Origin: Xanthostigma xanthostigma
Taxonomy: Eukaryota; Arthropoda; Insecta; Raphidioptera; Raphidiidae
Assembly: GCA_963575645.1 (NCBI GenBank)
Contig: OY754465.1
Location: forward strand, 30,887,501 to 30,951,500
Length of the DNA stretch: 64,000 nt
Direction: 5' to 3'
Part shown: piece by piece, positions 7,140 through 64,000 of the stretch
Position numbering within the stretch: position 1 is the first letter of the stretch
How the letters are laid out: every line of letters starts with the position of its first letter
The notes under the pieces: model-generated
The model's input: only the letters and a program-made list of their open reading frames with translations
What the model was told of the DNA's origin: nothing
Database searches by the model: none
Program-made: the position numbers and the translations under genes

Positions 7140-8294
7140 AACTGATCATTTCCTATTATTTTCACGCAGACAAGCAGTATTTACATGCTTTATGACAATA
7201 AGGTGCAAATGAGTCCTTATAGGCAAAATTGCTTTATTTCATAAAGGTAAGTCTACTTACACTATAACATTCAGGTTTGGATCATTCTCTCATTAGAAAA
7301 TGAAAACTGCATATTTACTATCATTTTTACGCAGACAAGTAGTTTTTACATGCTTTACGACAATTAGGTGCGAATGAGTCCTTAGAAGCAAAATTACTTT
7401 ATTTTACAAAGGCAAGTCTATTTACACTATAACATTCAGGTTTAAATTATTCTCTCATAAGAAAATGCAAACTGCACATTTACTATCATTTTAACGCAGA
7501 CAAGCAGTTTTTACATGCTTTACGACAATTAGGTGCAAATGAGTCCTTATAGGCAAAATTGCTTTATTTCATGAAGGTAAGTCTATTTACACTCTAACAT
7601 TCAGTTTTGGATTATTTTCTCATAAGAAAATGCAAACTGCATATAAACCATTATTTTAACGCAGACAAGCAGTTTTTACATAGTTTACGACAATAAGGTG
7701 CAACTAAGTCCTTAAAGGCAAAATTGTTTTATTTTACAAAGGTAAGTCTACTTTCACTATAACATTCAGGTTTGGATCAGTCTCTCATAAGAAAATGCAA
7801 ACTGCATATTAAACATTATTTTAACGCTGACAAGCAGTTTTTACATGCTTTATGACAATTAGGGGCAAATGAGTCATTATAGGCAAAATTGCTTTATTTA
7901 ATGAAGGTATAACTATTTACACTATTATATTCAGGTTTGGATCATTCTCTCATAAGAAAATGCAAACTGCATATTAACCATTATTTTAACGCAGACAAGC
8001 AGTTTTTACATGCCTTACGACAATTAGGTGCAAATGAGTCCTTATAGGCAAAATTGCTTTACTTTACAAAGGTAAGTTTACTTAAACTATAACATTCAGG
8101 TTTGAATCATTCTCTCATAAGAAAATGCAAACTGCATATTAACCATTATTTTAACGCAGACAAGCAGTTTTTACATGCTTTACGACAATTAGGTGCAAAT
8201 GAGTCTTTATAGGCAAAATTGCTTTGTATCATGAGGGTAAGTCTATTTACACTATAACATTCAGGTTTGGATCATTCTCTCATAAGAAAATGCA
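7140..8294 (+). repeat. Landmark cassette, alpha subtype, copy 1 (M1-M7)
   Basis: Seven divergent monomers in order. M1 (7140) begins AACTGATCATTTCC and has CAGTATTTAC; it is preceded by CTCAAAAGATAATGC. M2 (7305) has ACAAGTAGTTTTT, GGTGCGAATG and CCTTAGAAGC. M3 (7470) begins AACTGCACATTT, M4 (7635) has TACATAGTTTACGACAATAAGG, and M5 (7800) has GGTATAACT at 7906. M6 (7965) has GTTTACTTAAACT and M7 (8130) has TTTGTATCATGAGGG. Ordinary monomers lie on both sides. The variants are specific to this set and recur in the same order elsewhere. Confidence 0.87.
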
Positions 8295-8620
8295 AACTGC
8301 ATATTTACTATCATTTTAACGCATACAAGCAGTTTTTACATGCTTTACGACAATTAGGTGTAAATGAGTCTTTATAGGCAAAATTGCTTTATTTCATGAG
8401 GGTAATTCTATTTTCACTATAACATTCAGGTTTGGATCATTCTTTCATAAGAAAATGCAAACTGCATATTAACTATTATTTTAACGCTACAAGCAGTTTT
8501 TACAAGCTTTTTGACAATTAGTTGCAAATGAGTCCTTATAGGCAAAATTGCTTTATTTCATTAGGGTAAGTCTATTTACACTATAACATTCAGGTTTGGA
8601 TCATTCTCTCATAAGAAAAT

Positions 8621-8630
8621 GCAAAAACTG
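8621..8630 (+). repeat. Marker: +2 bp GCAAAAACTG monomer boundary
   Basis: Two extra A residues at the monomer boundary. The same insertion is at 22623, 36268, 38247 and 54107. The successive spacings 14,002, 13,645 and 17,839 (8621 to 22623 to 36268 to 54107) equal those of the neighbouring alpha cassettes, which supports one common large repeat unit. The copy at 38247 belongs to the local 1,979-bp duplication. Confidence 0.85.
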
Positions 8631-11465
8631 CATATTAACCATTATTTTAACGCATACAAGCAGTTTTTACATGCTTTATGACAATTAGGGGCAAATGAGT
8701 CCTTATAGGCAAAATTGCTTTATTTCATGAAGGTAAGTCTATTTACCCTATAATATTCAGGTTTGGATCATTCTCTCATAAGAAAATGCAAACTGTATAT
8801 TAACCAATATTTTAACGCTACAAGCAGTTTTTACATGCTTTATGACAATTAGGGGCAAATGAGTCCTTATAGGCAAAATTGCTTTATTTCATGAAGGTAA
8901 GTCTATTTACACTATAACATTCAGGTTTGGATCATTCTCTCATAAGAAAATGCAAACTGCATATTAACCATTATTTTAACGCAGACAAGCAGTTTTTACA
9001 TGCTTCACGACAATTGCGTGCAAATGAGTCCTTATAGGCAAAATTGCTTTATTTTACAAAGGTAAGTCTATTTACACTATAACATTTAGGTTTGGATCAT
9101 TCTCTCATAAGAAAATGCAAACTGCATATTTACTATCATTTTAACGCATACAAGCAGTTTTTACATGCTTTATGACAATTAGGTGCAAATGAGTCTTTAT
9201 AGGCAAAATTGCTTTATTTCATGAGGGTAAATCTATTTACACTATAACATTTAGGTTTGGATCATTTTCTCATAAGAAAATGCAAACTGCATATAAACCA
9301 TTATTTTAACGCAGACAAGCAGTGTTTACATGGTTTACGACAATTAGGTGCAAATGAGTCCTTATAGGCAAAATTGCTTTATTTCATGAGGGTAAGTCTA
9401 TTTACACTATAACATTCAGGTTTAGATCATTCTCTCATAAGAAAATGCAAACTGCATATTTACTATCATTTTAACGCATACAAGCAGTTTTTACATGCTT
9501 CACGACAATTGCGTGCAAATGAGTCCTTATAGGCAAAATTGCTTTATTTTACAAAGCTAAGTCTATTTACACTATAACATTCAGGTTTGGATAATTCTCT
9601 CATAAGAAAATGCAAACTGCATATTAACCATTATTTTAACGCAGACAAGCAGTTTTTACATGCTTCACGACAATTGCGTGCAAATGAGTCCTTATAGGCA
9701 AAATTGCTTTATTTTACAAAGGTAAGTCTATTTTCACTATAACATTCAGGTTTGGATCATTCTCTCATAAGAAAATGCAAACTGCATATTAACCATTATT
9801 TTAACGCTACAAGCAGTTTTTACATGCTTTATGACAATTAGGGGCAAATGAGTCCTTATAGGCAAAATTGCTTTATTTCATGAAGGTAAGTCTATTTACA
9901 CTATAACATTCAGGTTTGGATCATTCTCTCATAAGAAAATGCAAACTGCATATTAACCATTATTTTAACGCAGACAAGCAGTTTTTACATGCTTCACGAC
10001 AATTGCGTGCAAATGAGTCCTTATAGGCAAAATTGCTTTATTTTACAAAGGTAAGTCTATTTACACTATAACATTTAGGTTTGGATCATTCTCTCATAAG
10101 AAAATGCAAACTGCATATTTACTATCATTTTAACGCATACAAGCAGTTTTTACATGCTTTATGACAATTAGAGGCAAATGAGTCCTTATAGGCAAAATTG
10201 CTTTATTTCATGAATGTAAGTCTATATACACTATAACATTCAGGTTTGGTTCATTCTCTCATAAGAAAATGGAAACTGCATATTAACCATTATTTTAACG
10301 CTGACAAGCAGTTTTTACATGCTTTATGACAATTAGGGGCAAATGAGTCCTTATAGGCAAAATTGCTTTATTTCATGAAGGTAAGTCTATTTACACTATA
10401 ACATTCAGGTTTGGATCATTCTCTCATAAGAAAATGCAAACTGCATATTAACCATTATTTTAACGCAGACAAGCAGTTTTTACATGCTTCACGACAATTG
10501 CGTGCAAATGAGTCCTTATAGGCAAAATTGCTTTATTTTACAAAGGTAAGTCTATTTACACTATAACATTCAGGTTTGGATCATTCTCTCATAAGAAAAT
10601 GCAAACTGCATATTAACCATTATTTAAACGCAGACAAGCAGTTATTACATGCTTTACGACAATTAGGTGCAAATGAGTCTTTATAGGCAAAATTGCTTTA
10701 TTTCATGAGGGTAAGTCTATTTACACTATAACATTCAGGTTTGGATCATTCTCTCATAAGAAAATGCAAACTGCATATTTACTATCATTTTCACGCAGAC
10801 AAGCAGTTTTTACATGCTTCACGACAATTGCGTGCAAATGAGTCCTTATAGGCTAAATTGCTTTATTTTACAAAGGTAAGTCTATTTTCACTATAACATT
10901 CAGGTTTGGATCATTCTCTCATAAGAAAATGCAAACTGCATATTAACCATTATTTTAACGCATACGAGCAGTTTTTACATGCTTTATGACAATTAGGGGC
11001 AAATGAGTCCTTATAGGCAAAATTGCTTTATTTCATGAAGGTAAGTCTATTTACACTATAACATTCAGGTTTGGATCATTCTCTCATAAGAAAATGCAAA
11101 CTGCATATTAACCATTATTTTAACGCATACAAGCAGTTTTTACATGCTTTATGACAATTAGGTGCAAATGAGTCCTTATAGGCAAAATTGCTTTATTTTA
11201 CAAAGGAAAGTCTATTTACACTATAACATTCAGGTTTCGAAATTCTCTCATAAGAAAATGCTAACTGCATATTAACCATTATTTTAACGCAGACAAGCAG
11301 TTTTTACATGCTTTATGACAATTAGGGGCAAATGAGTCCTTATAGGCAAAATTGCTTTATTTTATGAAGGTAAGTCTATTTACACTATAACATTCAGGTT
11401 TGGATCATTCTCTCATAAGAAAATGCAAACTGCATATTAACCATTATTTTAACGCAGACAAGCAT

Positions 11466-13239
11466 TTTTTACATGCTTCACGACAATTGCGTGCAAATGA
11501 GTCCTTATAGGCAAAATTGCTTTATTTTACAAAGGTAAGTCTATTTACACTATAACATTCAGGTTTGGATCATTCTCTCATAAGAAATTTCAAACTGCAT
11601 ATTAACCATTATTTAAACGCAGACAAGCAGTTATTACATGCTTTACGACAATTAGGTGCAAATGAGTCTTTATAGGAAAAAAAATTGCTTTATTTCATGA
11701 GGGTGAGTCTATTTACACTATAACATTAAGGTTTGGATCATTCTCTCATAAGAAAATGCAAACTGCATATTTACTATCATTTTCACGCAGACAAGCAGTT
11801 TTTACATGCTTCACGACAATTGCGTGCAAATGAGTCCTTATAGGCTAAATTGCTTTATTTTACAAAGGTAAGTCTATTTACACTATAACATTCAGGTTTG
11901 GATCATTCTCTCATAAGAAAATGCAAACTGCATATTAACCATTATTTTAACGCATACAAGCAGTTTTTACATGCTTTATGACAATTAGGGGCAAATGAGT
12001 CCTTATAGGCAAAATTGCTTTATTTCATGAAGGTAAGTGTATTTACACTATAACATTCAGGTTTGGATCATTCTCTCATAAGAAAATGCAAACTGCATAT
12101 TAACCATTATTTAAAAGCAGATAAGCAGTTTTTACATGCTTTACGACAATTAGGTGCAAATGAGTCTTTATAGGCAAAATTGCTTTATTTCATGAGGGTA
12201 AGTCTATTTACACTATACCATTCAGGTTTGGATCATTCTCTCATAAGAAAATGCAAACTGCATATTAACCATTATTTTAACGCAGACAAGCAGTTTTTAC
12301 ATGCTTCACGACAATTGCGTGCAAATGAGTCCTTATAGGCAAAATTGCTTTATTTTACAAAGGTAAGTCTATTTACACTATAACATTCAGGTTTGGATCA
12401 TTCTCTCATAAGAAATTTCAAACTGCATATTAACCATTATTTAAACGCAGACAAGCAGTTATTACATGCTTTACGACAATTAGGTGCAAATGAGTCTTTA
12501 TAGGAAAAAAAATTGCTTTATTTCATGAGGGTGAGTCTATTTACACTATAACATTAAGGTTTGGATCATTCTCTCATAAGAAAATGCAAACTGCATATTT
12601 ACTATCATTTTCACGCAGACAAGCAGTTTTTACATGCTTCACGACAATTGCGTGCAAATGAGTCCTTATAGGCTAAATTGCTTTATTTTACAAAGGTAAG
12701 TCTATTTACACTATAACATTCAGGTTTGGATCATTCTCTCATAAGAAAATGCAAACTGCATATAAACCATTATTTTAACGCATACAAGCAGTTTTTACAT
12801 GCTTTATGACAATTAGGGGCAAATGAGTCCTTATAGGCTAAATTGCTTTATTTCATGAAGGTAAGTGTATTTACACTATAACATTCAGGTTTGGATCATT
12901 CTCTCATAAGAAAATGCAAACTGCATATTAACCATTATTTAAAAGCAGATAAGCAGTTTTTACATGCTTTACGACAATTAGGTGCAAATGAGTCTTTATA
13001 GGCAAAATTGCTTTATTTCATGAGGGTAAGTCTATTTACACTATACCATTCAGGTTTGGATCATTCTCTCATAAGAAAATGCAAACTGCATATTAACCAT
13101 TATTTTAACGCAGACAAGCAGTTTTTACATGCTTCACGACAATTGCGTGCAAATGAGTCCTTATAGGCAAAATTGCTTTATTTTACAAAGGTAAGTCTAT
13201 TTACACTATAACATTCAGGTTTGGATCATTCTCTCATAA
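11466..13239 (+). repeat. 828-bp tandem duplication (five monomers)
   Basis: Bases from about 11466 recur 828 bp later up to about 13239. Shared rare variants are AAGAAATTTCAAACTGC (11583 and 12411), TATAGGAAAAAAAATTGC (11671 and 12499, a 3-bp insertion), ATTTAAAAGCAGATAAGC and ACTATACCATTC. The unit is 5 x 165 plus the 3-bp insertion. I noticed two differences between copies (TATTAACC against TATAAACC, and GGCAAAATTG against GGCTAAATTG). The left edge lies where GCATTTTTTAC (11464) contrasts with GCAGTTTTTAC (12292). Confidence 0.85.
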
Positions 13240-14239
13240 GAAAATGCAAACTGCATATTAACCATTATTTTAACGCAGACAAGCAGTTTTTACATGCTTC
13301 ACGACAATTGCGTGCAAATGAGTCTTTATAGGCAAAATTGCTTTATTTTACAAAGGTAAGTCTATTTACACTATAACATTCAGGTTTGGATCATTCACTC
13401 ATAAGAAAATGCAAACTGCATATTTACTATCATTTTAACGCATACAAGCAGTTTTTACATGCTTTATGACAATTACGGGGAAATGAGTCCTTATAGGCAA
13501 AATTGCTTTATTTCATGAAGGTAAGTCTATTTACACTATACCATTCAGGTTTGGATCGTTCTCTCATAAGAAAATGCAAACTGCATGTTAACCATTATTT
13601 TAACGCAGACAAGAAGTTTTTACATGCTTTATGACAATTACGGGGAAATGAGTCCTTATAGGCAAAATTGCTTTATTTCATGAAGGTAAGTCTATTTACA
13701 CTATAACATTCAGGTTTGGATCATTCTCTCATAAGAAAATGCAAACTGCATATTAACCATTATTTTAACGCAGACAAGCAGTTTTTACATGCTTTATGAC
13801 AATTAGGGGCAAATGAGTCCTTATAGGCAAAATTGCTTTATTTTATGAAGGTAAGTCTATTTACACTATAACATTCAGGTTTGGATCATTCTCTCATAAG
13901 AAAATGCAAACTGCATATTAACCATTATTTAAACGCAGACAAGCAGTTTTTACATGCTTTACGACAATTAGGTGCAAATGAGTCCTTATAAGCAAAATTG
14001 CTTTATTTTACAAAGGTAAGTCTATTTTCAATATAACATTCAGGTTTGGATCATTCTCTCATAAGAAAATGCAAACTGCATATTAACTATTATTTTAACG
14101 CATACAAGCAATTTTTACATGCTTTATTAATTATTAGGGGCAAATGAGTCCTTATAGGCAAAATTGCTTTATTTCATGAAGGTAAGTCTATTTACACTAT
14201 AATATTCAGGTCTGGATCATTCTCTCATAAGAAAATGCA

Positions 14240-14385
14240 AACTGCATATTAATCATTATTTTAACACTACAAGCAGTTTTTACATGCTTTATGACAATTA
14301 GGGGCAAAATTGCTTTATTTTATGAAGGTAAGTCTATTTACACTATAACATTCAGGTTTGGATCATTCTCTCATAAGAAAATGCA
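14240..14385 (+). repeat. 146-bp monomer with an 18-bp deletion, copy 1
   Basis: TTAGGGGCAAAATTGC joins what are normally two separate GGCAAA sites, removing 18 bp between them, the expected product of slippage between short direct repeats. One further base is missing in TTAACACTACAAG. A matching monomer lies at 30353. Confidence 0.88.
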
Positions 14386-14550
14386 AACTGCATATTAACC
14401 ATTATTTTAACGCAGACAAGCAGTTTTTACATGCTTCACGACAATTGCGTGCAAATTAGTCCTTATAGGCAAAATTGCTTTATTTTACAAAGGTAAGTTT
14501 ATTTACACTATAACATTCAGGTTTGGATCATTCTCTCATAAGAAAATGCA

Positions 14551-15540
14551 AACTGCATATTTACTATCATTTTTACGCAGACAAGTAGTTTTTACATGCT
14601 TCACGACAATTAGGTGCGAATGAGTCCTTAGAATCAAAATTACTTTATTTTACAAGGGCAAGTCTATTTACACTATAACATTCAGGTTTGGATCATTCTC
14701 TCATAAGTAAATGCAAACTGCATATTAACTATTATTTTAACGCATTCAAGCAGTTTTTACATGCTTTATGACAATTAGAGGCAAATGAGTCCTTATAGGC
14801 AAAATTGCTTTATTTCATGAAGGTAAGTCTATTTACACTATAACATTCAGGTTTGGATTATTTTCTCATAAGAAAATGCAAACTGCATATAAACTATTAT
14901 TTTAACGCAGACAAGCAGTTTTTACATGGTTTACGACAATAAGGTGCAAATAAGTCCTTAAAGGCAAAATTGTTTTATTTTACAAAGGTAAGTCTACTTT
15001 CACTATAACATTCAGGTTTGGATCAGTCTCTCATAAGAAAATGCAAACTGCATATTAAACAATATTTTAACGCTGACAAGCAGTTTTTACATGCTATATG
15101 ACAATTAGGGGCAAATGAGTTATTATAGGCAAAATTGCTTTATTTAATGAAGGTATAACTATTTACACTATTATATTCAGGTTTGGATCATTCTCTCATA
15201 AGAAAATGCAAACTGCATATTAACCATTATTTTAACGCAGACAAGCAGTTTTTACATGCTTTACGACAATTAGGTGCAAATGAGTCCTTATAGGCAAAAT
15301 TGCTTTACTTTACAAAGGTAAGTTTACTTAAACTATAACATTCAGGTTTGGATCATTCTCTCATAAGAAAATGCAAACTGCATATTAACCATTATTTTAA
15401 CGCAGAGAAGCAGTTTTTACATGCTTTACGACAATTAGGTGCAAATGAGTCTTTATAGGCAAAATTGCTTTATATCATGAGGGTAAGTCTATTTACACTA
15501 TAACATTCAGGTTTGGATCATTCTCCCATAAGAAAATGCA
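14551..15540 (+). repeat. Landmark cassette, beta subtype, copy 1 (M2-M7)
   Basis: M2 (14551, ACAAGTAGTTTTT, CCTTAGAATC) leads directly to a monomer with CGCATTCAAG and TTAGAGGC, then M4 with TACATGGTTTACGACAATAAGG, M5 with GGTATAACT at 15152, M6 and M7. The monomer before it is an ordinary type A, so M1 is absent here. Beta differs from alpha in lacking the AACTGCACATTT monomer and in reading TACATGG rather than TACATAG. It matches 31490-32479 at offset 16,939. Confidence 0.85.
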
Positions 15541-18176
15541 AACTGCATATAAACCATTATTTTAACGCTGATAAGCAGTTTTTACATGCTTTACGACAAT
15601 TAAGTGCAAATGAGTCCTTATAGGCAAAATTGCTTTATTTTACAAAGGTAAGTCTATTTTCACTATAACATTCAGGTTTGGATCTTTCTCTCATAAGAAA
15701 ATGCAAACTGCATATTAACTATTATTTTAACGCATACAAGCAGTTTTTACAAGCTTTATGACAATTAGGTGCAAATGAGTCCTTATAGGCAAAATTGCTT
15801 TATTTCATGAGGGTAAGTCTATTTACACTATAACATTCAGGTTTGGATCATTCTCTCATAAGAAAATTTAAAATGCATATTTACTATCATTTTAACGCAT
15901 ACAAGCAGTTTTTACATGCTTTATGACAATTAGGTGCAAATGAGTCTTTATAGGCAAAATTGCTTTATTTCATGAAGGTAAGTCTACTTACACTATAACA
16001 TTCAGGTTTGGATCATTCTCTCATAATAAAATGCAAACTGCATATTAACCATTATTTTAACGCAAACAAGCAGTTTTTACATGCTTTATGACAATTATTG
16101 GCAAATGAGTCCATATAGGCAAAATTGCTTTATTTTACAAAGGTAAGTCTATTTACACTATACATTCAGGTTTGGATCATTCTCTCGTAAGAAAATGCAA
16201 ACTGCATATTAACCATTATTTAAACGCAGACAAGCAGTTTTTACATGCTTTACGACAATTAAGTGCAAATGAGTCTTTATAGGCAAAATTGCTTAATTTC
16301 ATGAGGGTAAGTCTATTTACACTATAACATTCAGGTTTGGATCATTCTCTCATAAGAAAATGCAAACTGCATATTTACTATCATTTTTACGCAGACAAGC
16401 AGTTTTTAAATGCTTCACGACAATTGCGTGCAAATGAGTCCTTATAGGCAAAATTGCTTTATTTTACAAAGGTAAGTCTATTTACACTATAACATTCAGG
16501 TTTGGATCATTCTCTCATAAGAAAATGCAAACTGCATATTAACCATTATTTTAACGCATACAAGCAGTTTTTACATGCTTTATGACAATTAGGGGCAAAT
16601 GAGTCCATATAGGCAAAATTGCTTTATTTTACAAAGGTAAGTCTATTTACACTATACATTCAGGTTTAAATCATTCTCTCGTAAGAAAATGCAAACTGCA
16701 TATTAACCATTATTTAAACGCAGACAAGCAGTTTTTACATGCTTTATGACAATTAGGTGCAAATGAGTCTTTATAGGCATAATTGCTTTATTTCATGAAG
16801 GTAAGTCTATTTACACTATAACATTCAGGTTTGGATTATTCTCTCATAAGAAAATGCAAACTGCATATTAACCATTATTTTAACGCATACAAGCAGTTTT
16901 TACATGCTTTATGACAATTAGAGGCAAATGAGTCCTTATAGGCAAAATTGCTTTATTTCATGAAGGTAAGTCTATTTACACTTTAATATTCAGGTTTGGA
17001 TCATTCTCTCATAAGAAAATGCAAACTGCATATTAACCATTATTTTAACGCTACAAGCAGTTTTTACATGCTTTATGACAATTAGGTGCAAATGAGTCTT
17101 TATAGGCATAATTGCTTTATTTCATGAAGGTAAGTCTATTTACACTATAACATTCAGGTTTGGATTATTCTCTCATAAGAAAATGCAAACTGCATATTAA
17201 CCATTATTTTAACGCATACAAGCAGTTTTTACATGCTTTATGACAATTAGAGGCAAATGAGTCCTTATAGGCAAAATTGCTTTATTTCATGAAGGTAAGT
17301 CTATTTACACTATAATATTCAGGTTTGGATCATTCTCTCATAAGAAAATGCAAACTGCATATTAACAATTATTTTAACGCTACAAGCAGTTTTTACATGC
17401 TTTATGACAATTAGGGGCAAATGAGTCCTTATAGGCAAAATTGCTTTATTTCATGAAGGTAAGTCTATTTACACTATAACATTCACGTTTGGATCATTCT
17501 CTCATGAGAAAATGCAAACTGCATATTAACCATTATTTTAACGCAGACAAGCAGTTTTTACATGCTTCACGACAATTGCGTGCAAATGAGTCCTTATAGG
17601 CAAAATCGCTTTATTTTACAAAGGTAAGTTTATTTACACTATAACATTCAGGTTTGGATCATTCTCTCATAAGAAAATGCAAACTGCATATTAACCATTA
17701 TTTCAACGCAGACAAGCAGTTTTTACATGCTTTTCGACAATTAGGTGCAAATGAGTCTTTATAGGCAAAATTGCTTTATTTCATGAGGGTAAGTCTATTT
17801 ACACTATAACATTCAGGTTTGGATCATTTTCTCATAAGAAAATGCAAACTGCATATTAACCATTATTTTAACGCATACAAGCAGTTTTTACATGCTTTAT
17901 GACAATTAGGGGCAAATGAGTCCTTATAGGCAAAATTGCTTTTTTTCATGAAGGTTAGTCTATTTACACTATAACATTCAGGTTTGGATCATTCTCTCAT
18001 AAGAAAATGCAAACTGCATATTAACCATTATTTAAACGCAGACAAGCAGTTTTTACATGCTTCACGACAATTGCGTGAAAATGAGTCCTTATAGGCAAAA
18101 TTGCTTTATTTTACAAAGGTTAGTCTATTTACACTATAACATTCAGGTTTGGATCATTTTCTCAAAAAATAATGCA
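15541..18176 (+). repeat. Beta-to-alpha spacer 1
   Basis: About 2.6 kb of ordinary monomers with a set of private variants in fixed order: CGCTGATAAGC, GCAAACAAGC with TTATTGGC (16092), ACTATACATTC with GGTTTAAATC, GGCATAATTGC (16775 and 17104) and CTCATGAGAAAATG. The same order recurs in the spacers at 32.5-34.8 kb and 49.3-52.6 kb. Its right part belongs to the 2,966-bp duplication. Confidence 0.82.
16650..17330 (+). repeat. Nested dimer duplication (329 bp), first occurrence
   Basis: A two-monomer unit, one with GGCATAATTGC and GGATTATTCTCTC and one with CGCATACAAG and TTAGAGGC, is repeated at a spacing of 329 bp (GGCATAATTG near 16775 and 17104). The second copy has the one-base-shorter CGCTACAAG. 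Because the 2,966-bp duplication also contains it (19.74 and 20.07 kb), the dimer duplication came first. Edges are approximate. Confidence 0.8.
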
Positions 18177-19330
18177 AACTGATCATTTCCTATTATTTTC
18201 ACGCAGACAAGCAGTATTTACATGCTTTATGACAATTAGGTGCAAATGAGTCCTTATAGGCAAAATTGCTTTATTTCATAAAGGTAAGTCTACTTACACT
18301 ATAACATTCAGGTTTGGATCATTCTCTCATTAGAAAATGAAAACTGCATATTTACTATCTTTTTACGCAGACAAGTAGTTTTTACATGCTTCACGACAAT
18401 TAAGTGCGAATGAGTCCTTAGAAGCAAAATTACTTTTTTTTACAAAGGCAAGTCTATTTACACTATAACATTCAGGTTTGGATCATTCTCTCATAAGAAA
18501 ATGCAAACTGCACATTTACTATCATTTTAACGCAGACAAGCAGTTTTTACATGCTTTACGACAATTAGGTGCAAATGAGTCCTTATAGGCAAAATTGCTT
18601 TATTTCATGAAGGTAAGTCTATTTACACTCTAACATTCAGGTTTGGATTATTTTCTCATAAGAAAATGCAAACTGCATATAAACCATTTTTTTAACGCAG
18701 ACAAGCAGTTTTTACATAGTTTACGACAATAAGGTGCAAATAAGTCCTTAAAGGCAAAATTGTTTTATTTTACAAAGGTAAGTCTACTTTCACTATAACA
18801 TTCAGGTTTGGATCAGTCTCTCATAAGAAAATGCAAACTGCATATTAAACATTATTTTAACGCTGACAAGCAGTTTTTACATGCTTTATGACAATTAGGG
18901 GCAAATGAGTCATTTTAGGCAAAATTGCTTTATTTAATGAAGGTATAACTATTTACACTATTATATTTAGGTTTGGATCATTCTCTCATAAGAAAATGCA
19001 AACTGCATATTAACTATTATTTTAACGCAGACAAGCAGTTTTTACATGCTTTACGACAATTAGGTGCAAATGAGTCCTTATAGGCAAAATTGCTTTACTT
19101 TACAAAGGTAAGTTTACTTAAACTATAACATTCAGGTTTGGATCATTCTCTCATAAGAAAATGCAAACTGCATATTAACCATTATTTTAACGCAGACAAG
19201 CAGTTTTTACATGCTTTACGACAATTAGGTGCAAATGAGTCTTTATAGGCAAAATTGCTTTATATCATGAGGGTAAGTCTATTTACACTATAACATTCAG
19301 GTTTGGATCATTCTCTCATAAGAAAATGCA
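18177..19330 (+). repeat. Landmark cassette, alpha subtype, copy 2
   Basis: M1 (18177), M2 with a one-base loss in ACTATCTTTTTACG, M3 with AACTGCACATTT, M4 with TACATAGTTTACG, M5 with GAGTCATTTTAGG and GGTATAACT at 18942, M6 and M7. M1 is preceded by CTCAAAAAATAATGC. M1-to-M5 distance is 765 bp, one base less than in most copies because of the M2 loss. Confidence 0.87.
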
Positions 19331-19388
19331 AACTGCATATTTACTATCATTTTAACGCATACAAGCAGTTTTTACATGCTTTACGACA

Positions 19389-45300: not shown

Positions 45301-45325
45301 TATAACATTTACACTATAATATTCA
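45301..45325 (+). repeat. 14-bp internal tandem duplication in a monomer, copy 1
   Basis: TTTACACTATAACA is followed at once by TTTACACTATAATA and then TTCAGG, making this monomer 14 bp longer than normal. I saw this insertion only here and at 46799. Confidence 0.88.
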
Positions 45326-46798: not shown

Positions 46799-46823
46799 TA
46801 TAACATTTACACTATAATATTCA
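46799..46823 (+). repeat. 14-bp internal tandem duplication in a monomer, copy 2
   Basis: Identical insertion 1,498 bp after the first. The interval equals nine monomers plus 14 minus one, so the insertion was copied with its surroundings and did not arise twice. Confidence 0.88.
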
Positions 46824-49328: not shown

Positions 49329-50343
49329 AACTGCATATTAACCATTATTTTAACGCTGATAAGCAGTTTTTACATGCTTTACGACAATTAAGTGCAAATG
49401 AGTCCTTATAGGCAAAATTGCTTTATTTTACAAAGGTAAGTCTATTTTCACTATAACATTCAGGTTTGGATCTTTCTCTCATAAGAAAATGCAAACTGCA
49501 TATTAACTATTATTTTAACGCAGACAAGCAGTTTTTACATGGTTTACGACAATAAGGTGCAAATAAGTCCTTAAAGGCAAAATTGTTTTATTTTACAAAG
49601 GTAAGTCTACTTTCACTATAACATTCAGGTTTGGATCAGTCTCTCATAAGAAAATGCAAACTGCATATTAAACATTATTTTAACGCTGACAAGCAGTTTT
49701 TACATGCTATATGACAATTAGGGGCAAATGAGTCATTATAGGCAAAATTGCTTTATTTAATGAAGGTATAACTATTTACACTATTATATTCAGGTTTGGA
49801 TCATTCTCTCATAAGAAAATGCAAACTGCATATTAACCATTATTTTAACGCAGACAAGCAGTTTTTACATGCTTTACGACAATTAGGTGCAAATGAGTCC
49901 TTATAGGCAAAATTGCTTTACTTTACAAAGGTAAGTTTACTTAAACTATAACATTCAGGTTTGGATCATTCTCTCATAAGAAAATGCAAACTGCATATTA
50001 ACCATTATTTTAACGCAGAGAAGCAGTTTTTACATGCTTTACGACAATTAGGTGCAAATGAGTCTTTATAGGCAAAATTGCTTTATATCATGAGGGTAAG
50101 TCTATTTACACTATAACATTCAGGTTTGGATCATTCTCCCATAAGAAAATGCAAACTGCATATTAACCATTATTTTAACGCTGATAAGCAGTTTTTACAT
50201 GCTTTACGACAATTAAGTGCAAATGAGTCCTTATAGGCAAAATTGCTTTATTTTACAAATGTAAGTCTATTTTCACTATAACATTCAGGTTTGGATCTTT
50301 CTCTCATAAGAAAATGCAAACTGCATATTAACTATTATTTTAA
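48669..50343 (+). repeat. 825-bp tandem duplication (exactly five monomers)
   Basis: Monomers M4 to M7 plus the CGCTGATAAGC monomer are repeated at exactly 825 bp: M4 at 48669 and 49494, GGTATAACT at 48940 and 49765. The monomer 49494-49658 is the hybrid: its left end TATTAACTATT matches the monomer at 50319, and from AGACAAG onward it matches M4 at 48669. The switch lies between about 49509 and 49522. One difference noticed is ACAAATGTAAG against ACAAAGGTAAG (near 50268). Confidence 0.9.
49494..50153 (+). repeat. Landmark cassette, beta subtype, copy 4 (M4-M7 only)
   Basis: Partial cassette made by the 825-bp duplication, with GGTATAACT at 49765. It has no M1 to M3 because the duplicated segment starts within M4. 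Confidence 0.86.
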
Positions 50344-52625: not shown

Positions 52626-53780
52626 AACTGATCATTTCCTATTATTTTCACGCAGACAAGCAGTATTTACATGCTTTATGACAATTAGGTGCAAATGAGT
52701 CCTTATAGGCAAAATTGCTTTATTTCATAAAGGTAAGTCTACTTACACTATAACATTCAGGTTTGGATCATTCTCTCATTAGAAAATGAAAACTGCATAT
52801 TTACTATCATTTTTACGCAGACAAGTAGTTTTTACATGCTTCACGACAATTAGGTGCGAATGAGTCCTTAGAAGCAAAATTACTTTTTTTTACAAAGGCA
52901 AGTCTATTTACACTATAACATTCAGGTTTGGATCATTCTCTCATAAGAAAATGCAAACTGCACATTTACTATCATTTTAACGCAGACAAGCAGTTTTTAC
53001 ATGCTTTACGACAATTAGGTGCAAATGAGTCCTTATAGGCAAAATTGCTTTATTTCATGAAGGTAAGTCTATTTACACTCTAACATTCAGGTTTGGATTA
53101 TTTTCTCATAAGAAAATGCAAACTGCATATAAACCATTATTTTAACGCAGACAAGCAGTTTTTACATAGTTTACGACAATAAGGTGCAAATAAGTCCTTA
53201 AAGGCAAAATTGTTTTATTTTACAAAGGTAAGTCTACTTTCACTATAACATTCAGGTTTGGATCAGTCTCTCATAAGAAAATGCAAACTGCATATTAAAC
53301 ATTATTTTAACGCTGACAAGCAGTTTTTACATGCTTTATGACAATTAGGGGCAAATGAGTCATTTTAGGCAAAATTGCTTTATTTAATGAAGGTATAACT
53401 ATTTACACTATTATATTCAGGTTTGGATCATTCTCTCATAAGAAAATGCAAACTGCATATTAACCATTATTTTAACGCAGACAAGCAGTTTTTACATGCT
53501 TTACGACAATTAGGTGCAAATGAGTCCTTATAGGCAAAATTGCTTTACTTTACAAAGGTAAGTTTACTTAAACTATAACATTCAGGTTTGGATCATTCTC
53601 TCATAAGAAAATGCAAACTGCATATTAACCATTATTTTAACGCAGACAAGCAGTTTTTACATGCTTTACGACAATTAGGTGCAAATGAGTCTTTATAGGC
53701 AAAATTGCTTTATATCATGAGGGTAAGTCTATTTACACTATAACATTCAGGTTTGGATCATTCTCTCATAAGAAAATGCA
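52626..53780 (+). repeat. Landmark cassette, alpha subtype, copy 5
   Basis: M1 to M7 with the same variants as the cassette at 34787, offset 17,839, and GGTATAACT at 53392. This is the last cassette I could find in the window. Confidence 0.87.
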
Positions 53781-56700
53781 AACTGCATATTTACTATCAT
53801 TTTAACGCATACAAGCAGTTTTTACATGCTTTACGACAATTAGGTGTAAATGAGTCTTTATAGGCAAAATTGCTTTATTTCATGAGGGTAAGTCTATTTT
53901 CACTATAACATTCAGGTTTGGATCATTCTCTCATAAGAAAATGCAAACTGCATATTAACTATTATTTTAACGCTACAAGCAGTTTTTACAAGCTTTATGA
54001 CAATTAGTTGCAAATGAGTCCTTATAGGCAAAATTGCTTTATTTCATTAGGGGAAGTCTATTTACACTATAACATTCAGGTTTGGATCATTCTCTCATAA
54101 GAAAATGCAAAAACTGCATATTAACCATTATTTTAACGCATACAAGCAGTTTTTACATGCTTTATGACAATTAGGGGCAAATGAGTCCTTATAGGCAAAA
54201 TAGCTTTATTTCATGAAGGTAAGTCTATTTACACTATAATATTCAGGTTTGGATCATTCTCTCATAAGAAAATGCAAACTGTATATTAACCATTATTTTA
54301 ACGCTACAAGCAGTTTTTACATGCTTTATGACAATTAGGGGCAAATGAGTCCTTATAGGCAAAATTGCTTTATTTCATGAAGGTAAGTCTATTTACACTA
54401 TAACATTCAGGTTTGGATCATTCTCTCATAAGAAAATGCAAACTGCATATTAACCATTATTTTAACGCAGACAAGCAGTTTTTACATGCTTCACGACAAT
54501 TGCGTGCAAATGAGTCCTTATAGGCAAAATTGCTTTATTTTACAAAGGTAAGTCTATTTTCACTATAACGTTCAGGTTTGGATCATTCTCTCATAAGAAA
54601 ATGCAAACTGCATATTAACCATTATTTTAACGCATACAAGCAGTTTTTACATGCTTTATGACAATTAGGGGCAAATGAGTCCTTATAGGCAAAATTGCTT
54701 TATTTCATGAAGGTAAGTCTATTTAAACTATAACATTCAGGTTTGGATCATTCTCTCATAAGAAAATGGAAACTGCATATTAACCATTATTTTAACGCTG
54801 ACAAGCAGTTTTTACATGCTTTATGACAATTAGGGGCAAATGAGTCCTTATAGGCAAAATTGTTTTATTTCATGAAGGTAAGTCTATTTACACTATAACA
54901 TTCAGGTTTGGATCATTCTCTCATAAGAAAATGCAAACTGCATAATAACCATTATTTTAACGCAGACAAGCAGTTTTTACATGCTTCACGACAATTGCGT
55001 GCAAATGAGTCCTTATAGGCAAAATTGCTTTATTTTACAAAGGTAAGTCTATTTACACTATAACATTCAGGTTTGGATCATTCTCTCATAAGAAAATTCA
55101 AACTGCATATTAACCATTATTTAAACGCAGACAAGCAGTTATTACATGCTTTACGACAATTAGGTGCAAATGAGTCTTTATAGGCAAAATTGCTTTATTT
55201 CATGAGGGTAAGTCTATTTACACTATAACATTCAGGTTTGGATCATTCTTTCATAAGAAAATGCAAACTGCATATTTACTATCATTTTCACGCAGACAAG
55301 CAGTTTTTACATGCTTCACGACAATTGCGTGCAAATGAGTCCTTATAGGCCAAATTGCTTTATTTTACAAAGGTAAGTCTATTTTCACTATAACATTCAG
55401 GTTTGGATCATTCTCTCATAAGAAAATGCAAACTGCATATTAACCATTATTTTAACGCATACAAGCAGTTTTTACATGCTTTATGACAATTAGGGGCAAA
55501 TGAGTCCTTATAGGCAAAATTGCTTTATTTCATGAAGGTAAGTCTATTTACACTACAACATTCAGGTTTGGATCATTCTCTCATAAGAAAATGCAAACTG
55601 CATATTAACCATTATTTTAACGCAAAAAGCAGTTTTTACATGCTTTATGAAAATTAGGGGCAAATGAGTCCTTATAGGCAAAATTGCTTTATTTCATGAA
55701 GGTAAGTGTATTTACACTATAACATTCAGGTTTAGATCATTCTCTCATAAGAAAATGCAAACTGCATATTAACCATTATTTAAACGCAGACAAGCAGTTT
55801 TTACATGCTTTACGACAATTAGGTGCAAATGAGTCTTTATAGGCAAAATTGCTTTATTTCATGAGGGTAAGTCTATTTACACTATAACATTCAGGTTTGG
55901 ATCATTCTTTCATAAGAAAATGCAAATTGCATATTTACTATCATTTTCACGCAGACAAGCAGTTTTTACATGCTTCACGACAATTGCGTGCAAATGAGTC
56001 CTTATAGGCTAAATTGCTTTATTTTACAAAGGTAAGTCTATTTTCACTATAACATTCAGGTTTGGATCATTCTCTCATAAGAAAATGCAAACTGCATATT
56101 AATCATTATTTTAACGCATACAAGCAGTTTTTACATGCTTTATGACAATTAGGGGCAAATGAGTCCTTATAGGCAAAATTGCTTTATTTCATGAAGGTAA
56201 GTCTATTTACACTATAACATTCAGGTTTGGATCATTCTCTCATAAGAAAATGGAAACTGCATATTAACCATTATTTTAACGCTGACAAGCAGTTTTTACA
56301 TGCTTTATGACAATTAGGGGCAAATGAGTCCTTATAGGCAAAATTGCTTTATTTTATGAAGGTAAGTCTATTTACACTATAACATTCAGGTTTGGATCAT
56401 TCTCTCATAAGAAAATGCAAACTGCATATTAACCATTATTTTAACGCAGACAAGCATTTTTTACATGCTTCACGACAATTGCGTGCAAATGAGTCCTTAT
56501 AGGCAAAATTGCTTTATTTTACAAAGGTAAGTCTATTTACACTATAACATTCAGGTTTGGATCATTCTCTCATAAGAAATTTCAAACTGCATATTAACCA
56601 TTATTTAAACGCAGACAAGCAGTTATTACATGCTTTACGACAATTAGGTGCAAATGAGTCTTTATAGGCAAAATTGCTTTATTTCATGAGGGTAAGTCTA

Positions 56701-59700
56701 TTTACACTATAACATTCAGGTTTGGATCATTCTCTCATAAGAAAATGCAAACTGCATATTTACTATCATTTTCACGCAGACAAGCAGTTTTATATGCTTC
56801 ACGACAATTGCGTGCAAATGAGTCCTTATAGGCTAAATTGCTTTATTTTACAAAGGTAAGTCTATTTACACTATAACATTCAGGTTTGGATCATTCTCTC
56901 ATAAGAAAATGCAAAATGCATATTAACCATTATTTTAACGCATACAAGCAGTTTTTACATGCTTTATGACAATTAGGGGCAAATGAGTCCTTATAGGCAA
57001 AATTGTTTTATTTCATGAAGGTAAGTGTATTTACACTATAACATTCAGGTTTGGATCATTCTCTCATAAGAAAATGCAAACTGCATATTAACCATTATTT
57101 AAACGCAGACAAGCAGTTTTTACATGCTTTACGACAATTAGGTGCAAATGAGTCTTTATAGGCAAAATTGCTTTATTTCATGAGGGTAAGTCTATTTACA
57201 CTATACCATTCAGGTTTGGATCATTCTCTCATAAGAAAATGCAAACTGCATATTAACCATTATTTTAACGCAGACAAGCAGTTTTTACATGCTTCACGAC
57301 AATTGCGTGCAAATGAGTCCTTATAGGCAAAATTGCTTTATTTTACAAAGGTAAGTCTATTTACACTATAACATTCAGGTTTGGATCATTCTCTCATAAG
57401 AAAATGCAAACTGCATATTAACCATTATTTAAACGCAGACAAGCAGTTTTTACATGGTTTACGACAATTAGGTGCAAATGAGTCCTTATAGGCAAAATTG
57501 TTTTATTTCATGAGGGTAAGTCTATTTACACTATAACATTCAGGTTTAGATCATTCTCTCATAAGAAAATGCAAACTGCATATTTACTATCATTTTAACG
57601 CATACAAGCAGTTTTTACATGCTTTATGACAATTAGGTGCAAATGAGTCCTTATAGGCAAAATTGCTTTATTTTACAAAGGTAAGTCTATTTACACTATA
57701 ACATTCAGGTTTGGATAATTCTCTCATAAGAAAATGCAAACTGCATATTAACCATTATTTTAACGCAGACAAGCAGTTTTTACATGCTTCACGACAATTG
57801 CGTGCAAATGAGTCCTTATAGGCAAAATTGCTTTATTTTACAAAGGTAAGTCTATTTTCACTATAACATTCAGGTTTGGATCATTCTCTCATAAGAAAAT
57901 GCAAACTGCATATTAACCATTATTTTAACGCATACAAGCAGTTTTTACATGCTTTATGACAATTAGGGGCAAATGAGTCCTTATAGGCAAAATTGCTTTA
58001 TTTCATGAAGGTAAGTCTATTTACACTATTACATTCAGGTTTGGATCATTTTCTCATAAGAAAATGGAAACTGCATATTAACCATTATTTTAACGCTGAC
58101 AAGCAGTTTTTACATGTTTTATGACAATTAGGGGCAAATGAGTCCTTATAGGCAAAATTGCTTTATTTCATGAAGGTAAGTCTATTTACACTATAACATT
58201 CAGGTTTGGATCATTCTCTCATAAGAAAATGCAAACTGCATATTAACCATTATTTTAACGCAGACAAGCAGTTTTTACATGCTTCACGACAATTGCGTGC
58301 AAATGAGTCCTTATAGGCAAAATTGCTTTATTTTACAAAGGTAAGTCTATTTACACTATAACATTCAGGTTTGGATCATTCTCTCATAAGAAATTTCAAA
58401 CTGCATATTAACCATTATTTAAACGCAGACAAGCAGTTATTACATGCTTTACGACAATTAGGTGCAAATGAGTCTTTATAGGCAAAATTGCTTTATTTCA
58501 TGAGGGTAAGTCTATTTACACTATAACATTCAGGTTTGGATCATTCTCTCATAAGAAAATGCAAACTGCATATTTACTATCATTTTCACGCAGACAAGCA
58601 GTTTTTACATGCTTTATGACAATTAGGTGCAAATGAGTCTTTGTAGGCAAAATTGCTTTATTTCATCAGGGGAAAGTCTATTTACACTATAACATTCAGG
58701 TTTGGATCATTCTCTCATAAGAAAATGCAAACTGCATATTAACCATTATTTTAACGCAGACAAGCAGTTTTTACATGCTTCACGACAATTGCGTGCAAAT
58801 GAGTCCTTATAGGCAAAATTGCTTTATTTTACAAAGTTAAGTCTATTTACACTATAACATTCAGGTTTGGATCATTCTCTCATAAGAAAATGCAAACTGC
58901 ATATTAACCATTATTTAAACGCAGACAAGCAGTTTTTACATGCTTTACGACAATTAGGTGCAAATGAGTCTTTATAGGCAAAATTGCTTTATTTCATGAG
59001 GGTAAGTCTATTTACACTATACCATTCAGGTTTGGATCATTCTCTCATAAGAAAATGCAAACTGCATATTAACCATTATTTTAACGCAGACAAGCAGTTT
59101 TTACATGCTTCACGACAATTGCGTGCAAATGAGTCCTTATAGGCAAAATTGCTTTATTTTACAAAGGTAAGTCTATTTACACTATAACATTCAGGTTTGG
59201 ATCATTCTCTCTTAAGAAAATGCAAACTGCATATTAACCATTATTTAAACGCAGACAAGCAGTTTTTACATGCTTTATGACAATTAGGGGCAAATGAGTC
59301 CTTATAGGCAAAATTGCTTTATTTCATGAAGGTAAGTGTATTTACACTATAACATTCAGGTTTGGATCATTCTCTCATAAGAAAATGCAAACTGCATATT
59401 AACCATTATTTAAACGCAGACAAGCAGTTTTTACATGCTTTACGACAATTAGGTGCAAATGAGTCTTTATAGGCAAAATTGCTTTATTTCATGAGGGTAA
59501 GTCTATTTACAATATAACATTCAGGTTTGGATCATTCTCTCATAAGAAAATGCAAACTGCATATTTACTATCATTTTCACGCAGACAAGCAGTTTTTACA
59601 TGCTTCACGACAATTGCGTGCAAATGAGTCCTTATAGGCTAAATTGCTTTATTTTACAAAGGTAAGTCTATTTACACTATAACATTCAGGTTTGGATCAT

Positions 59701-62700
59701 TCTCTCATAAGAAAATGCAAACTGCATATTAACCATTATTTTAACGGATACAAGCAGATTTATGCTTTATGACAATTAGGGGCAAATGAGTCCTTATAGG
59801 CAAAATTGCTTTATTTCATGAAGGTAAGTGTATTTACACTATAACATTCAGGTTTGGATCATTCTCTCATAAGAAAATGCAAACTGCATATTAACCATTA
59901 TTTAAACGCAGACAAGCAGTTTTTACATGCTTTACGACAATTAGGTGCAAATGAGTCTTTATAGGCAAAATTGCTTTATTTCATGAGGGTAAGTCTATTT
60001 ACACTATACCATTCAGGTTTGGATCATTCTCTCATAAGAAAATGCAAACTGCATATTAACCATTATTTTAACGCAGACAAGCAGTTTTTACATGCTTCAC
60101 GACAATTGCGTGCAAATGAGTCCTTATAGGCAAAATTGCTTTATTGTACAAAGTTAAGTCTATTTACACTATAACATTCAGGTTTGGATCATTCTCTCAT
60201 AAGAAAATGCAAACTGCATATACTCATTATTTAAACGCAGACAAGCAGTTTTTACATGGTTTACGACAATTAGGTGCAAATGAGTTCCTATAGGCAAAAT
60301 TGCTTTATTTCATGAGGGTAAGTCTATTTACACTATAACATTCAGGTTTAGATCATTCTCTCATAAGAAAATGCAAACTGCATATTTACTATCATTTTAA
60401 CGCATACAAGCAGTTTTTACATGCTTTATGACAATTAGGTGCAAATGAGTCCTTATAGGCAAAATTGCTTTATTTTACAAAGGTAAGTCTATTTACACTA
60501 TAACATTCAGGTTTGGAAATTCTCTCATAAGAAAATGCTAACTGCATATTAACCATTATTTTAACGCAGACAAGCAGTTTTTACATGCTTCACGACAATT
60601 GCGTGCAAATGAGTCCTTATAGGCAAAATTGCTTTATTTTACAAAGGTAAGTCTATTTTCACTATAACATTCAGGTTTGGATCATTCTCTCATAAGAAAA
60701 TGCAAACTGCATATTAACCATTGTTTTAAAGCATACAAGCAGTTTTTACATGCTTTATGACAATTAGGGGCAAATGAGTCCTTATAGGCAAAATTGCTTT
60801 ATTTCATTAAGGTAAGTCTATTTACACTATCACATTCAGGTTTGGATCATTCTCTCATAAGAAAATGGAAACTGCATATTAACCATTATTTTAACGCTGA
60901 CAAGCAGTTTTTACATGCTTTATGACAATTAGGGGCAAATGAGTCCTTATAGGCAAAATTGCTTTATTTTATGAAGGTAAGTCTATTTACACTATAACAT
61001 TCAGGTTTGGATCATTCTCTCATAAGAAAATGCAAACTGCATATTAACCATTATTTTAACGCAGACAAGCATTTTTTACATGCTTCACGACAATTGCGTG
61101 CAAATGAGTCCTTATAGGCAAAATTGCTTTATTTTACAAAGGTAAGTCTATTTACACTATAACATTCAGGTTTGGATCATTCTCTCATAAGAAAATGCAA
61201 ACTGCATATTAACCATTATTTAAACGCAGACAAGCAGTTTTTACATGGTTTACGACAATTAGGTGCAAATGAGTCCTTATAGGCAAAATTGCTTTATTTC
61301 ATGAGGGTAAGTCTATTTACACTATAACATTCAGGTTTAGATCATTCTCTCATAAGAAAATGCAAACTGCATATTTACTATCATTTTAACGCATACAAGC
61401 AGTTTTTACATGCTTTATGACAATTAGGTGCAAATGAGTCCTTATAGGCAAAATTGCTTTATTTTACAAAGGTAAGTCTATTTACACTATAACATTCAGG
61501 TTTGGATAATTCTCTCATAAGAAAATGCAAACTGCATATTAACCATTATTTTAACGCAGACAAGGAGTTTTTACATGCTTCACGACAATTGCGTGCAAAT
61601 GAGTCCTTATAGGTAAAATTGCTTTATTTTACAAAGGTAAGTCTATTTTCACTATAACATTCAGGTTTGGATCATTCTCTCATAAGAAAATGCAAACTGC
61701 ATATTAACCATTATTTTAACGCATACAAGCAGTTTTTACATGCTTCACGACAATTGCGTGCAAATGAGTCCTTATAGGCAAAATTGCTTTATTTTACAAA
61801 GGTAAGTCTATTTACACTATAACATTCAGGTTTGGATCATTCTCTCATAAGAAAATGGAAACTGCATATTAACCATTATTTTAACGCTGACAAGCAGTTT
61901 TTACATGCTTTATGACAATTAGGGGCAAATGAGTCCTTATAGGCAAAATTGCTTTATTTCATGAAGGTAAGTCTATTTACACTATAACATTCAGGTTTGG
62001 ATCATTCTCTCATAAGAAAATGCAAACTGCATATTAACCATTATTTTAACGCAGACAAGCAGTTTTTACATGCTTCACGACAATTGCGTGCAAATGAGTC
62101 CTTATAGGCAAAATTGCTTTATTTTACAAAGGTAAGTCTATTTACACTATAACATTCAGGTTTGGATCATTCTCTCATAAGAAATTTCAAACTGCATATT
62201 AACCATTATTTAAACGCAGACAAGCAGTTATTACATGCTTTACGACAATTAGGTGCAAATGAGTCTTTATAGGCATAATTGCTTTATTTCATGAGGGTAA
62301 GTCTATTTACACTATAACATTCAGGTTTGGATCATTCTCTCATAAGAAAATGCAAACTGCATATTTACTATCATTTTCACGCAGACAAGCAGTTTTTACA
62401 TGCTTCACGACAATTGCGTGCAAATGAGTCCTTGTAGGCTAAATTGCTTTATTTTACAAAGGTAAGTCTATTTACACTATAACATTCAGTTTTGGATCTT
62501 TCTCTCATAAGAAAATGCAAACTGCATATTAACCATTATTTTAACGCATACAAGCAGTTTTTACATGCTTTATGACAATTAGGGGCAAATGAGTCCTTAT
62601 AGGCAAAATTGCTTTATTTCATGAAGGTTAGTGTATTTACACTATAACATTCAGGTTTGGATCATTCTCTCATAAGAAAATGCAAACTGCATATTAACCA

Positions 62701-64000
62701 TTATTTAAACGCAGACAAGCAGTTTTTACATGCTTTACGACAATTAGGTGCAAATGAGTCTTTATAGGCAAAATTGCTTTATTTCATGAGGGTAAGTCTA
62801 TTAACACTATATTATTCAGGTTTGGATCATTCTCTCATAAGAAAATGCAAACTGCATATTAACCATTATTTTAACGCAGACAAGCAGTTTTTACATGCTT
62901 CACGACAATTGCGTGCAAATTAGTCCTTATAGGCAAAATTGCTTTATTTTACAAAGGTAAGTCTATTTTCACTATAACATTCAGGTTTGGATCATTCTCT
63001 CATAAGAAAATGCAAACTGCATATTATACATTATTTTAACGCATACAAGCAGTTTTTACATGCTTTATGACAATTAGGGGCAAATGAGTTCTTATAGGCA
63101 AAATTGCATTATTTCATGAAGGTAAGTCTATTTACACTATAACATTCAGGATTGGATCATTCTCTCATAAGAAAATGCAAACTGCATATTAACCATTATT
63201 TAAACGCTGACAAGCAGTATTTACATGCTTTATGACAACTAGAAGCAAATGAGTCTTTATAGGCAAAATTGCTTTATTTCATTAAGGTAAGTCTATTTAG
63301 ACTATAACATTCAGGTTTGGATCATTCTCTCATAAGAAAATGCAAACTGCATATTAACTCTTATTTTAACGCATACAAGCAGTTTTTACAAGCTTTATGA
63401 CAATTAGGTGCAAATGAGTCCTTACAGGCAAAATTGCTTTATTTCATGAAGGTAAGTCTATTTTCACTATAACATTCAGGTTTGGATCATTCTCTCATAA
63501 GAAATTGTAAACTGCATATTAACCATTATTTTAACGCAGACAAGCAGTTTTTACATGCTTCACGACAATTGCGTGCAAATGAGTCCTTATAGGCAAAATT
63601 GCGTTATTTTACAAAGGTAAGTCTATTTTCACTATAACATTCAGGTTTGGATCGTTGTCTCATAAGAAAATGCAAACTGCATATTAACCATTATTTTAAC
63701 GCATACAAGCAGTTTTTACATGCTTTATGACAATTAGGGGCAAATGAGTCCTTATAGGCAAAATTGCTTTATTTCATTAAGGTAAGTCTATTTACACTAT
63801 AACATTCAGGTTTGGATCATTCTCTCATAAGAAAATGCAAACTGCATATTTACTATCATTTTAACGCATACAAGCAGTTTTTACATGCTTTATGACAATT
63901 AGGTGCAAATGAGTCCTTATAGGCAAAATTGCTTTATTTTACAAAGGTAAGTCTATTTACACTATAACATTCAGGTTTGGATCATTCTCTCATAAGAAAA
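53781..64000 (+). repeat. Long filler run 4 (runs off the window)
   Basis: At least 10.2 kb of ordinary A/B/C/D monomers with no cassette. Its left part matches 35942-38000 at offset 17,839 (for example GCAAAAACTG 36268 and 54107, CGCAAAAAGC 37782 and 55621). From about 58.3 kb it matches 42.5 kb onward at offset 15,859 (for example CATCAGGGGAAAG 42805 and 58664). From about 61 kb to the end the monomers are ordinary without a match I could place. Confidence 0.83.
57244..57408 (+). repeat. Type A monomer (reference copy)
   Basis: This 165-bp copy represents the commonest haplotype. Its diagnostic blocks are ACGCAGACAAG at positions 25-35, CTTCACGACAATTGCGTGC at 49-67 and TTTTACAAAGGTAAG in the 98-112 region. 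The first and second of the CACG/CGTG pair form a short inverted repeat around CAATTG. Type A usually follows a B-like monomer and precedes a C or D monomer in the filler runs. Compare the copies at 6975, 42375 and 59056. Confidence 0.9.

Follow-up and report, generated by a model that had tools for sequence, protein, structure and literature searches.

The window analysed here is a stretch of 64,000 nucleotides from Xanthostigma xanthostigma (Raphidioptera; Raphidiidae), which corresponds to positions 30,887,501-30,951,500 of contig OY754465.1, called C2 below, in assembly GCA_963575645.1 (623 Mb in 28 contigs). From end to end it consists of a 165-bp satellite, and 325 of the full monomers obtained by segmentation are exactly 165 bp long, while ten are of odd length; 254 distinct monomers are present and their mean pairwise identity is 92.2%. 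Neither tRNAs, nor open reading frames (ORFs) of 120 or more amino acids, nor a CENP-B-box-like match were found in the window. One 22-mer taken from the monomer has 162 exact matches in the window and 28,076 forward and 31,343 reverse matches genome-wide, which, if the window's rate applied everywhere, would extrapolate to about 23 Mb of satellite. A text search of the papers available returned neither the monomer sequence AAGCAGTTTTTACATGC nor a chromosome-level genome paper with a 165 bp centromeric satellite.

A first-pass annotation had followed two kinds of landmark through the window, alpha and beta, and described a higher-order repeat of 80-110 monomers composed of a beta cassette, an alpha cassette and long filler. 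We instead class the window as a set of local duplications arranged in a patchwork, within a satellite that is probably centromeric. In the real monomer order 33 duplicated blocks scored 25 or more, whereas 30 shuffles of that order yielded none, and the duplications are therefore not a product of chance. These blocks comprise 5-23 monomers each and recur at many offsets, from 825 bp to 45 kb, so that the window holds many overlapping multi-monomer copies at varied distances (Table 1). Even blocks that adjoin one another can differ in offset, as in the beta-bearing block at 17,674 bp, which is one monomer less than the 17,839 bp of the neighbouring alpha-bearing block.

Table 1. Features of the satellite array; positions are those of the window unless a contig is named, and the 159-kb array is the window with its flanks.
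Feature	Position	Strand	Copies, offset and identity
165-bp satellite array, 386 full monomers	1..64000	+	TRF, segmentation; no 30-mer in common with the reverse complement
GCAAAAACTG, 2-base insertion	8621..8630	+	other copies 22623, 36268, 38247, 54107
Alpha-bearing 23-monomer block	34291..38084	+	copy 52130-55923, +17,839 bp, 99.9% identical
Beta-bearing 15-monomer block, adjoins the alpha block above	31819..34290	+	copy 49493-51964, +17,674 bp, 99.6%
Alpha-bearing 13-monomer block	20977..23120	+	matches 34621-36765 and 52460-54604, 99.2%
Alpha-bearing 14-monomer block	6809..9118	+	matches 34456-36765 and 52295-54604, 98.8-98.9%
	6974-9448	+	matches 20977-23450, 98.6%
Beta-bearing 14-monomer block	14550..16857	+	match 31489-33796, +16,939 bp, 99.4%
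Beta-bearing 6-monomer block	31654..32643	+	match 48503-49492, +16,849 bp, 99.9%
Overlapping duplication, 19 monomers	16199..22295	+	16199-19329 and 19165-22295, +2,966 bp, 99.5%
Tandem duplication, exactly 5 monomers	48668..50317	+	+825 bp, 99.6%
17-monomer block without GGTATAACT	42209..45011	+	copy 58068-60868, +15,859 bp, 99.5%
Identical 7-monomer blocks	45012..47677	+	45012-46179 and 46510-47677, +1,498 bp
3,022-bp offset duplication, left end of window	1..4341	+	exact across 1,286 bp; 165-1319 vs 3187-4341, 99.9%
Out-of-register junction CTGCATACTATAACATT	2973..2989	+	5 in the 159-kb array, of which 4 lie to the left of the window
Isolated 0.5-kb satellite patch, far from the C1 block	C1:6,899,277-6,899,759		

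The landmarks on which the first-pass annotation relied are genuine. The alpha motif GGTATAACT lies at 7906, 21908, 35553 and 53392 as reported, the beta positions 15152, 32091 and 48940 were confirmed and carry GGTATAACT as well, and the second marker, GCAAAAACTG, occupies the four sites given for it. All of the resulting spacings (14,002, 13,645, 17,839, 16,939 and 16,849 bp) appear in a histogram of exact 100-mer offsets, and the alpha-to-beta filler lengths of 7.2, 10.2 and 13.4 kb agree with the motif positions. What does not hold is the completeness of the pattern, as the window contains 11 GGTATAACT sites rather than the seven listed: those at 602 and 3624 precede position 7140, where the annotation began, and those at 18942 and 49765 were produced by the 2,966-bp overlapping and the 825-bp tandem duplication, respectively. 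A fifth GCAAAAACTG site, at 38247, had also been missed; it lacks an accompanying GGTATAACT at 715 bp upstream. At the other sites GCAAAAACTG sits 715 bp downstream of GGTATAACT inside one duplicated block, and because it travels with that motif, its equal spacings are not the independent evidence they had been taken for. With up to one mismatch allowed, a 37-mer around GCAAAAACTG has five matches genome-wide, all of them in the window and within 46 kb; the marker is a single insertion that was copied locally.

The proposed unit of beta, alpha and variable filler, perhaps an old and decayed one, finds some footing in the order of the array: in three places in the window alpha comes next after beta, and near-identical monomers do occur on the diagonals predicted at 13.6, 14.0, 16.8-16.9 and 17.7-17.8 kb. 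These diagonals, however, are only 6-23 monomers long (15 monomers at 14,003 bp, 13 at 13,644, 23 at 17,839, 15 at 17,674, 14 at 16,939 and 6 at 16,849), whereas the landmarks delimit units of 85, 83 and 108 monomers by alpha spacing and of 103 and 102 by beta spacing. Offsets of 2,966 bp (second overall), 17,674, 15,859, 1,498 and 3,022 bp all rank above 13,645, 16,849 and 14,002 bp in the exact 100-mer histogram. Between successive units, 44/83, 55/83 and 48/85 monomers (alpha) and 52/102 (beta) could be matched collinearly, that is 51-66%, which is far above the permuted-order controls (means 21-26, highest 30). Arbitrary cuts did about as well, with a mean of 49 collinear matches (36-66) over 40 overlapping adjacent pairs of 85- or 100-monomer units; as these cuts overlap the proposed units, they compare frames and do not constitute an independent sample. 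Order in the array is real, yet dividing it by alpha and beta landmarks describes that order no better than dividing it elsewhere, and an 80-110-monomer unit is not supported. What survives of that description is the duplication of multi-monomer segments over 13-18 kb and the gain or loss of whole monomers between neighbours.

Beyond the window, the array was read as 159 kb of contiguous plus-strand satellite (the window, 20 kb to its left and 75 kb to its right), in which 86 duplicated blocks of 6-27 monomers cover 786 of 962 monomers (82%). All but one of the block offsets are below 50 kb (85/86; the remaining one is at 85 kb), and each neighbourhood has offsets of its own: 7,642 and 7,807 bp upstream, 7,428, 12,715, 22,453 and 30,209 bp downstream, and 24,086 and 2,804 bp further on. 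Copying is thus confined to short distances, and of the 66 pairs formed by 12 segments taken from elsewhere in the array, no more than 5 have any common block of score 24 or more; mean identity between these segments hardly differs from that within them, except for one segment (L019) that is only partly satellite.

The same 159 kb show where the alpha/beta pattern stops, for it continues neither 75 kb downstream nor 20 kb upstream, and no 80-110-monomer period is dominant. The beta variant GCTATATGACAATTAGG has four sites, all inside the window, and is missing from the 75 kb that follow, the next GGTATAACT on that side coming after 20.6 kb; the GCAAAAACTG marker is likewise confined to the window. 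For a 48-mer around GGTATAACT, the best 100 of 166 matches at up to two mismatches include 35 exact matches, every one of which lies on C2, between 29.48 and 31.03 Mb, and eight of them in the window; among the matches listed, these exact sites come in patches that can be hundreds of kb apart. Three properties of a higher-order repeat were tested, and the window departs from the class in two. There is no stable period, since monomer counts vary and the intervals between the 28 GGTATAACT sites of the 159 kb range from 660 bp to 20.6 kb, and whole units are not near-identical, since diagonals span 6-23 of 83-108 monomers; monomers within a unit are, on the other hand, more divergent (92.2% identity) than blocks at the proposed offsets (98.6-99.9%). 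Taken together, these observations make a true higher-order repeat very unlikely.

Near-identical blocks within one satellite, here up to 99.9%, are difficult to assemble, and collapsed, repeated or misjoined satellite might explain part of the duplications; two unplaced contigs, C15 and C25, start with the 165-bp satellite. The 58 loci examined contain no N, and both the graded divergence among copies and the change of offset by one monomer, from 17,839 to 17,674 bp, are not expected from a simple misjoin, so that assembly error is a very unlikely source of even part of the duplications.

The window lies within a satellite block of about 3 Mb in the middle of the 69-Mb C2. In 10-kb samples of this contig, satellite was present from 29.89 to 31.96 Mb and absent at 26.89, 28.89, 32.95 and 34.95 Mb, and listed sites extend from 29.015 to 32.018 Mb. 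Seven lists of satellite sites were used, three of them complete (49, 75 and 51 sites, together 175) and four giving the best 100 matches. Among the matches listed, the sites on C1-C11, the 11 chromosomes with at least two, form one internal interval per chromosome apart from the isolated patch on C1 (Table 1). This arrangement suggests a putative centromere or pericentromere. With the 165-bp satellite as the only candidate considered, it also argues against the alternative that the block is pericentromeric or other heterochromatin, carrying the same duplication patchwork, and not the centromere. Position alone does not show function, and the sites on C1 span 3.8 Mb with many strand switches, so the alternative retains some weight, although we regard it as rather unlikely.

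C2 also carries an ORF for a CENP-A-like H3 variant (C2:24,266,120-24,266,640, minus strand), which scores 95.5 bits against the histone model, compared with 165 for the best H3 genes. The PDB chain that matches it best is named H3.2/CENP-A (a chimera); the two align without gaps over 96 residues on both sides, whereas alignments to canonical H3 chains cover 94. A longer loop 1 is a trait of CENP-A, and the 96- versus 94-residue alignment is as expected from it. Holocentric chromosomes were considered as well; the CENP-A-like ORF speaks for ordinary centromeres, without proving them.

In our preferred reading, which we hold with good confidence, the window belongs to a block that is likely centromeric or pericentromeric, in which runs of 5-27 monomers have been recopied locally while others were lost. 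Unequal exchange between sister chromatids or break-induced replication would recopy such runs repeatedly, for the most part in register with the monomer and less than about 50 kb away, and would delete other runs. If a copied run includes a rare variant, such as a monomer with GGTATAACT or the GCAAAAACTG insertion, the variant would be carried along and mark the copies, and overlapping rounds of this process over tens of kb could build a patchwork that mimics one huge unit when few landmarks are followed. Tandem duplication of monomer runs is directly evident, because some copies abut or overlap: those at 825 and 2,966 bp in the window and one at 828 bp, among 7 of the 86 blocks in the 159 kb. 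Successive events are suggested by the graded identity of the alpha copies (98.6, 99.2 and 99.9%), and exceptions to monomer register are few, namely the scar CTGCATACTATAACATT and the odd-length monomers of the window. Models of both unequal exchange and break-induced replication have been proposed for satellites, as set out in PMC8997354; both fit, and they are indistinguishable here.

A neutral simulation of duplication and deletion, with parameters of our own choosing and four runs each of 20, 40 and 80 events, speaks to plausibility only. It gave 18-56, 29-90 and 60-222 blocks, respectively, compared with 86 observed, and block coverage of 47-69%, 61-80% and 72-89% of monomers, compared with 82%. 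Markers present in 4-6 copies across a span of more than 150 monomers arose in 1, 2 and 4 of the 4 runs.

Several observations weigh against this reading. The longest simulated blocks spanned 38-124 monomers, compared with 27 in the array. Block density declines unevenly with distance, the 15-20 kb class being denser than that at 10-15 kb. The copies of the blocks other than those 7 of 86 are separated, so that simple tandem duplication would need later events to part them, or copies would have to be set down at a distance. At four other, distant places on C2, motif pairs lie 3,463-3,467 bp apart (3,462 bp in the window; a comparison of positions only), which also counts in favour of a higher-order repeat; an older motif pair spanning about 21 monomers may exist, hinting at an older order. 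With respect to the centromere, C12 has one satellite site and C13 none among the matches listed.

The C2 array changes orientation about 83 kb to the right of the window. Plus-strand loci extend up to 31,034,835 and minus-strand loci begin at 31,034,837, leaving one base (C2:31,034,836) between the runs, and a 34-mer across this junction has a single genome match at up to two mismatches. Small minus-strand patches also occur on the left side, at 29.015 and 29.048 Mb. Ahead of the switch, at C2:31,026,742-31,031,341, a 4.6-kb non-satellite insert contains, by eye, about nine copies of a tandem repeat of about 120 bp.

A similar arrangement was seen on other chromosomes. In the three complete lists, plus sites lie on average to the left of minus sites on 7 of 8 two-strand chromosomes (sign test 0.035), and when sites that we picked from among the other matches listed are added, this is so on 11 of 11 (sign test 0.0005); both values are optimistic, because the data include some in which the pattern was first noticed. 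The exception among the eight is C2, whose only two minus sites in the complete lists belong to the small left-hand patch. Contig orientation cannot produce such a pattern, because a block that runs plus then minus still reads plus then minus after the contig is turned. More than one strand switch was found on C1, C2, C4, C5 and C6. A stricter rule, in which the left-most site is plus and the right-most minus (11/11), was withdrawn because 1.4 kb of minus satellite lies outside the first plus site on C1, and the minus sites at the left of C2 contradict it too. The C1 block has a small dyad at its left end (C1:39.513-39.533 Mb), with at least 1.4 kb of minus satellite followed by plus satellite; the dyad appears twice, about 17 kb apart.

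The bulk tendency of arrays to point inward from both arms is best treated as a lead rather than a rule. We tentatively raise, as somewhat short of probable, a polarity rule common to the chromosomes (by and large plus towards the left arm and minus towards the right), which could be kept by exchange or fusion of whole arms. Such a rule would differ from one dyad spread everywhere, because the single large junction that was read is private to its chromosome. The arm-exchange reading is suggested by mouse telocentric and Robertsonian chromosomes, for which repeat polarity is mentioned in PMC7230836.

Elsewhere in the assembly, no runs of TTAGG, TCAGG or the similar sequences tested were found in the loci examined, and the chromosome ends may be unusual. 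In their first 150 bases, C1, C3-C6, C8-C10, C12 and C13 start with tandem units about 20 bp long, some T-rich and some of other kinds, for example CCCTTTTTTGGGCCGTTTTTT. Clustered histone gene matches occur at C11:1-52,000, at 6.79-8.19 Mb on C11 and at C12:16.03-16.20 Mb; because C11 starts inside a histone match (bases 4-201), its end may not be a chromosome end. On C28 (17,745 bp), COX1 and COX2 have open reading frames when translated with the invertebrate mitochondrial code.

The array invites comparison with several known systems. Patchy repeats are a feature of Arabidopsis CEN178. With the higher-order repeats of alpha satellite the array has in common a nucleosome-like monomer length and segments duplicated at about 99% among more divergent monomers; unlike them, it has no tandem unit, only runs of 5-27 monomers at many neighbourhood-specific offsets. 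The first-pass annotation had set the size of known higher-order repeats at 2-20 monomers, which is too narrow a range, as there are reports of a 34-mer in human Y alpha satellite (PMC8997354) and 58-mer and 84-mer super-higher-order repeats (superHORs) in orangutan (PMC12428378); given the latter, even a real 80-110-mer would not be far beyond known cases. The array also resembles irregular local satellite duplications of the kind modelled in PMC8997354, which are also nested, overlapping and variable in length, with no single period and short distances, although the organism and the monomer differ from those described before.

Strand-switching satellite arrays in centromere-like regions also recall the macro-dyads of Tribolium, which according to PMC13081366 range from a few kb to 75 kb, have conserved inversion sites and are documented in that genus only. 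On C2, as there, opposite array halves meet, but the arms are of about 1-2 Mb and the inversion site is not conserved, the one large junction that was read having been found once.

Following only a few landmarks through a locally duplicated satellite can give the impression of an enormous regular unit, and this window provides an example in which the distances and identities have been measured. If the polarity rule were true, repeats facing the same way on their arms could recombine between chromosomes without forming dicentrics, and arm-facing polarity would be both a trace and a condition of satellite homogenisation between chromosomes. Should a full map bear out the inward polarity of the blocks, this polarity would provide a trace, open to testing, of exchange between centromeres on different chromosomes.

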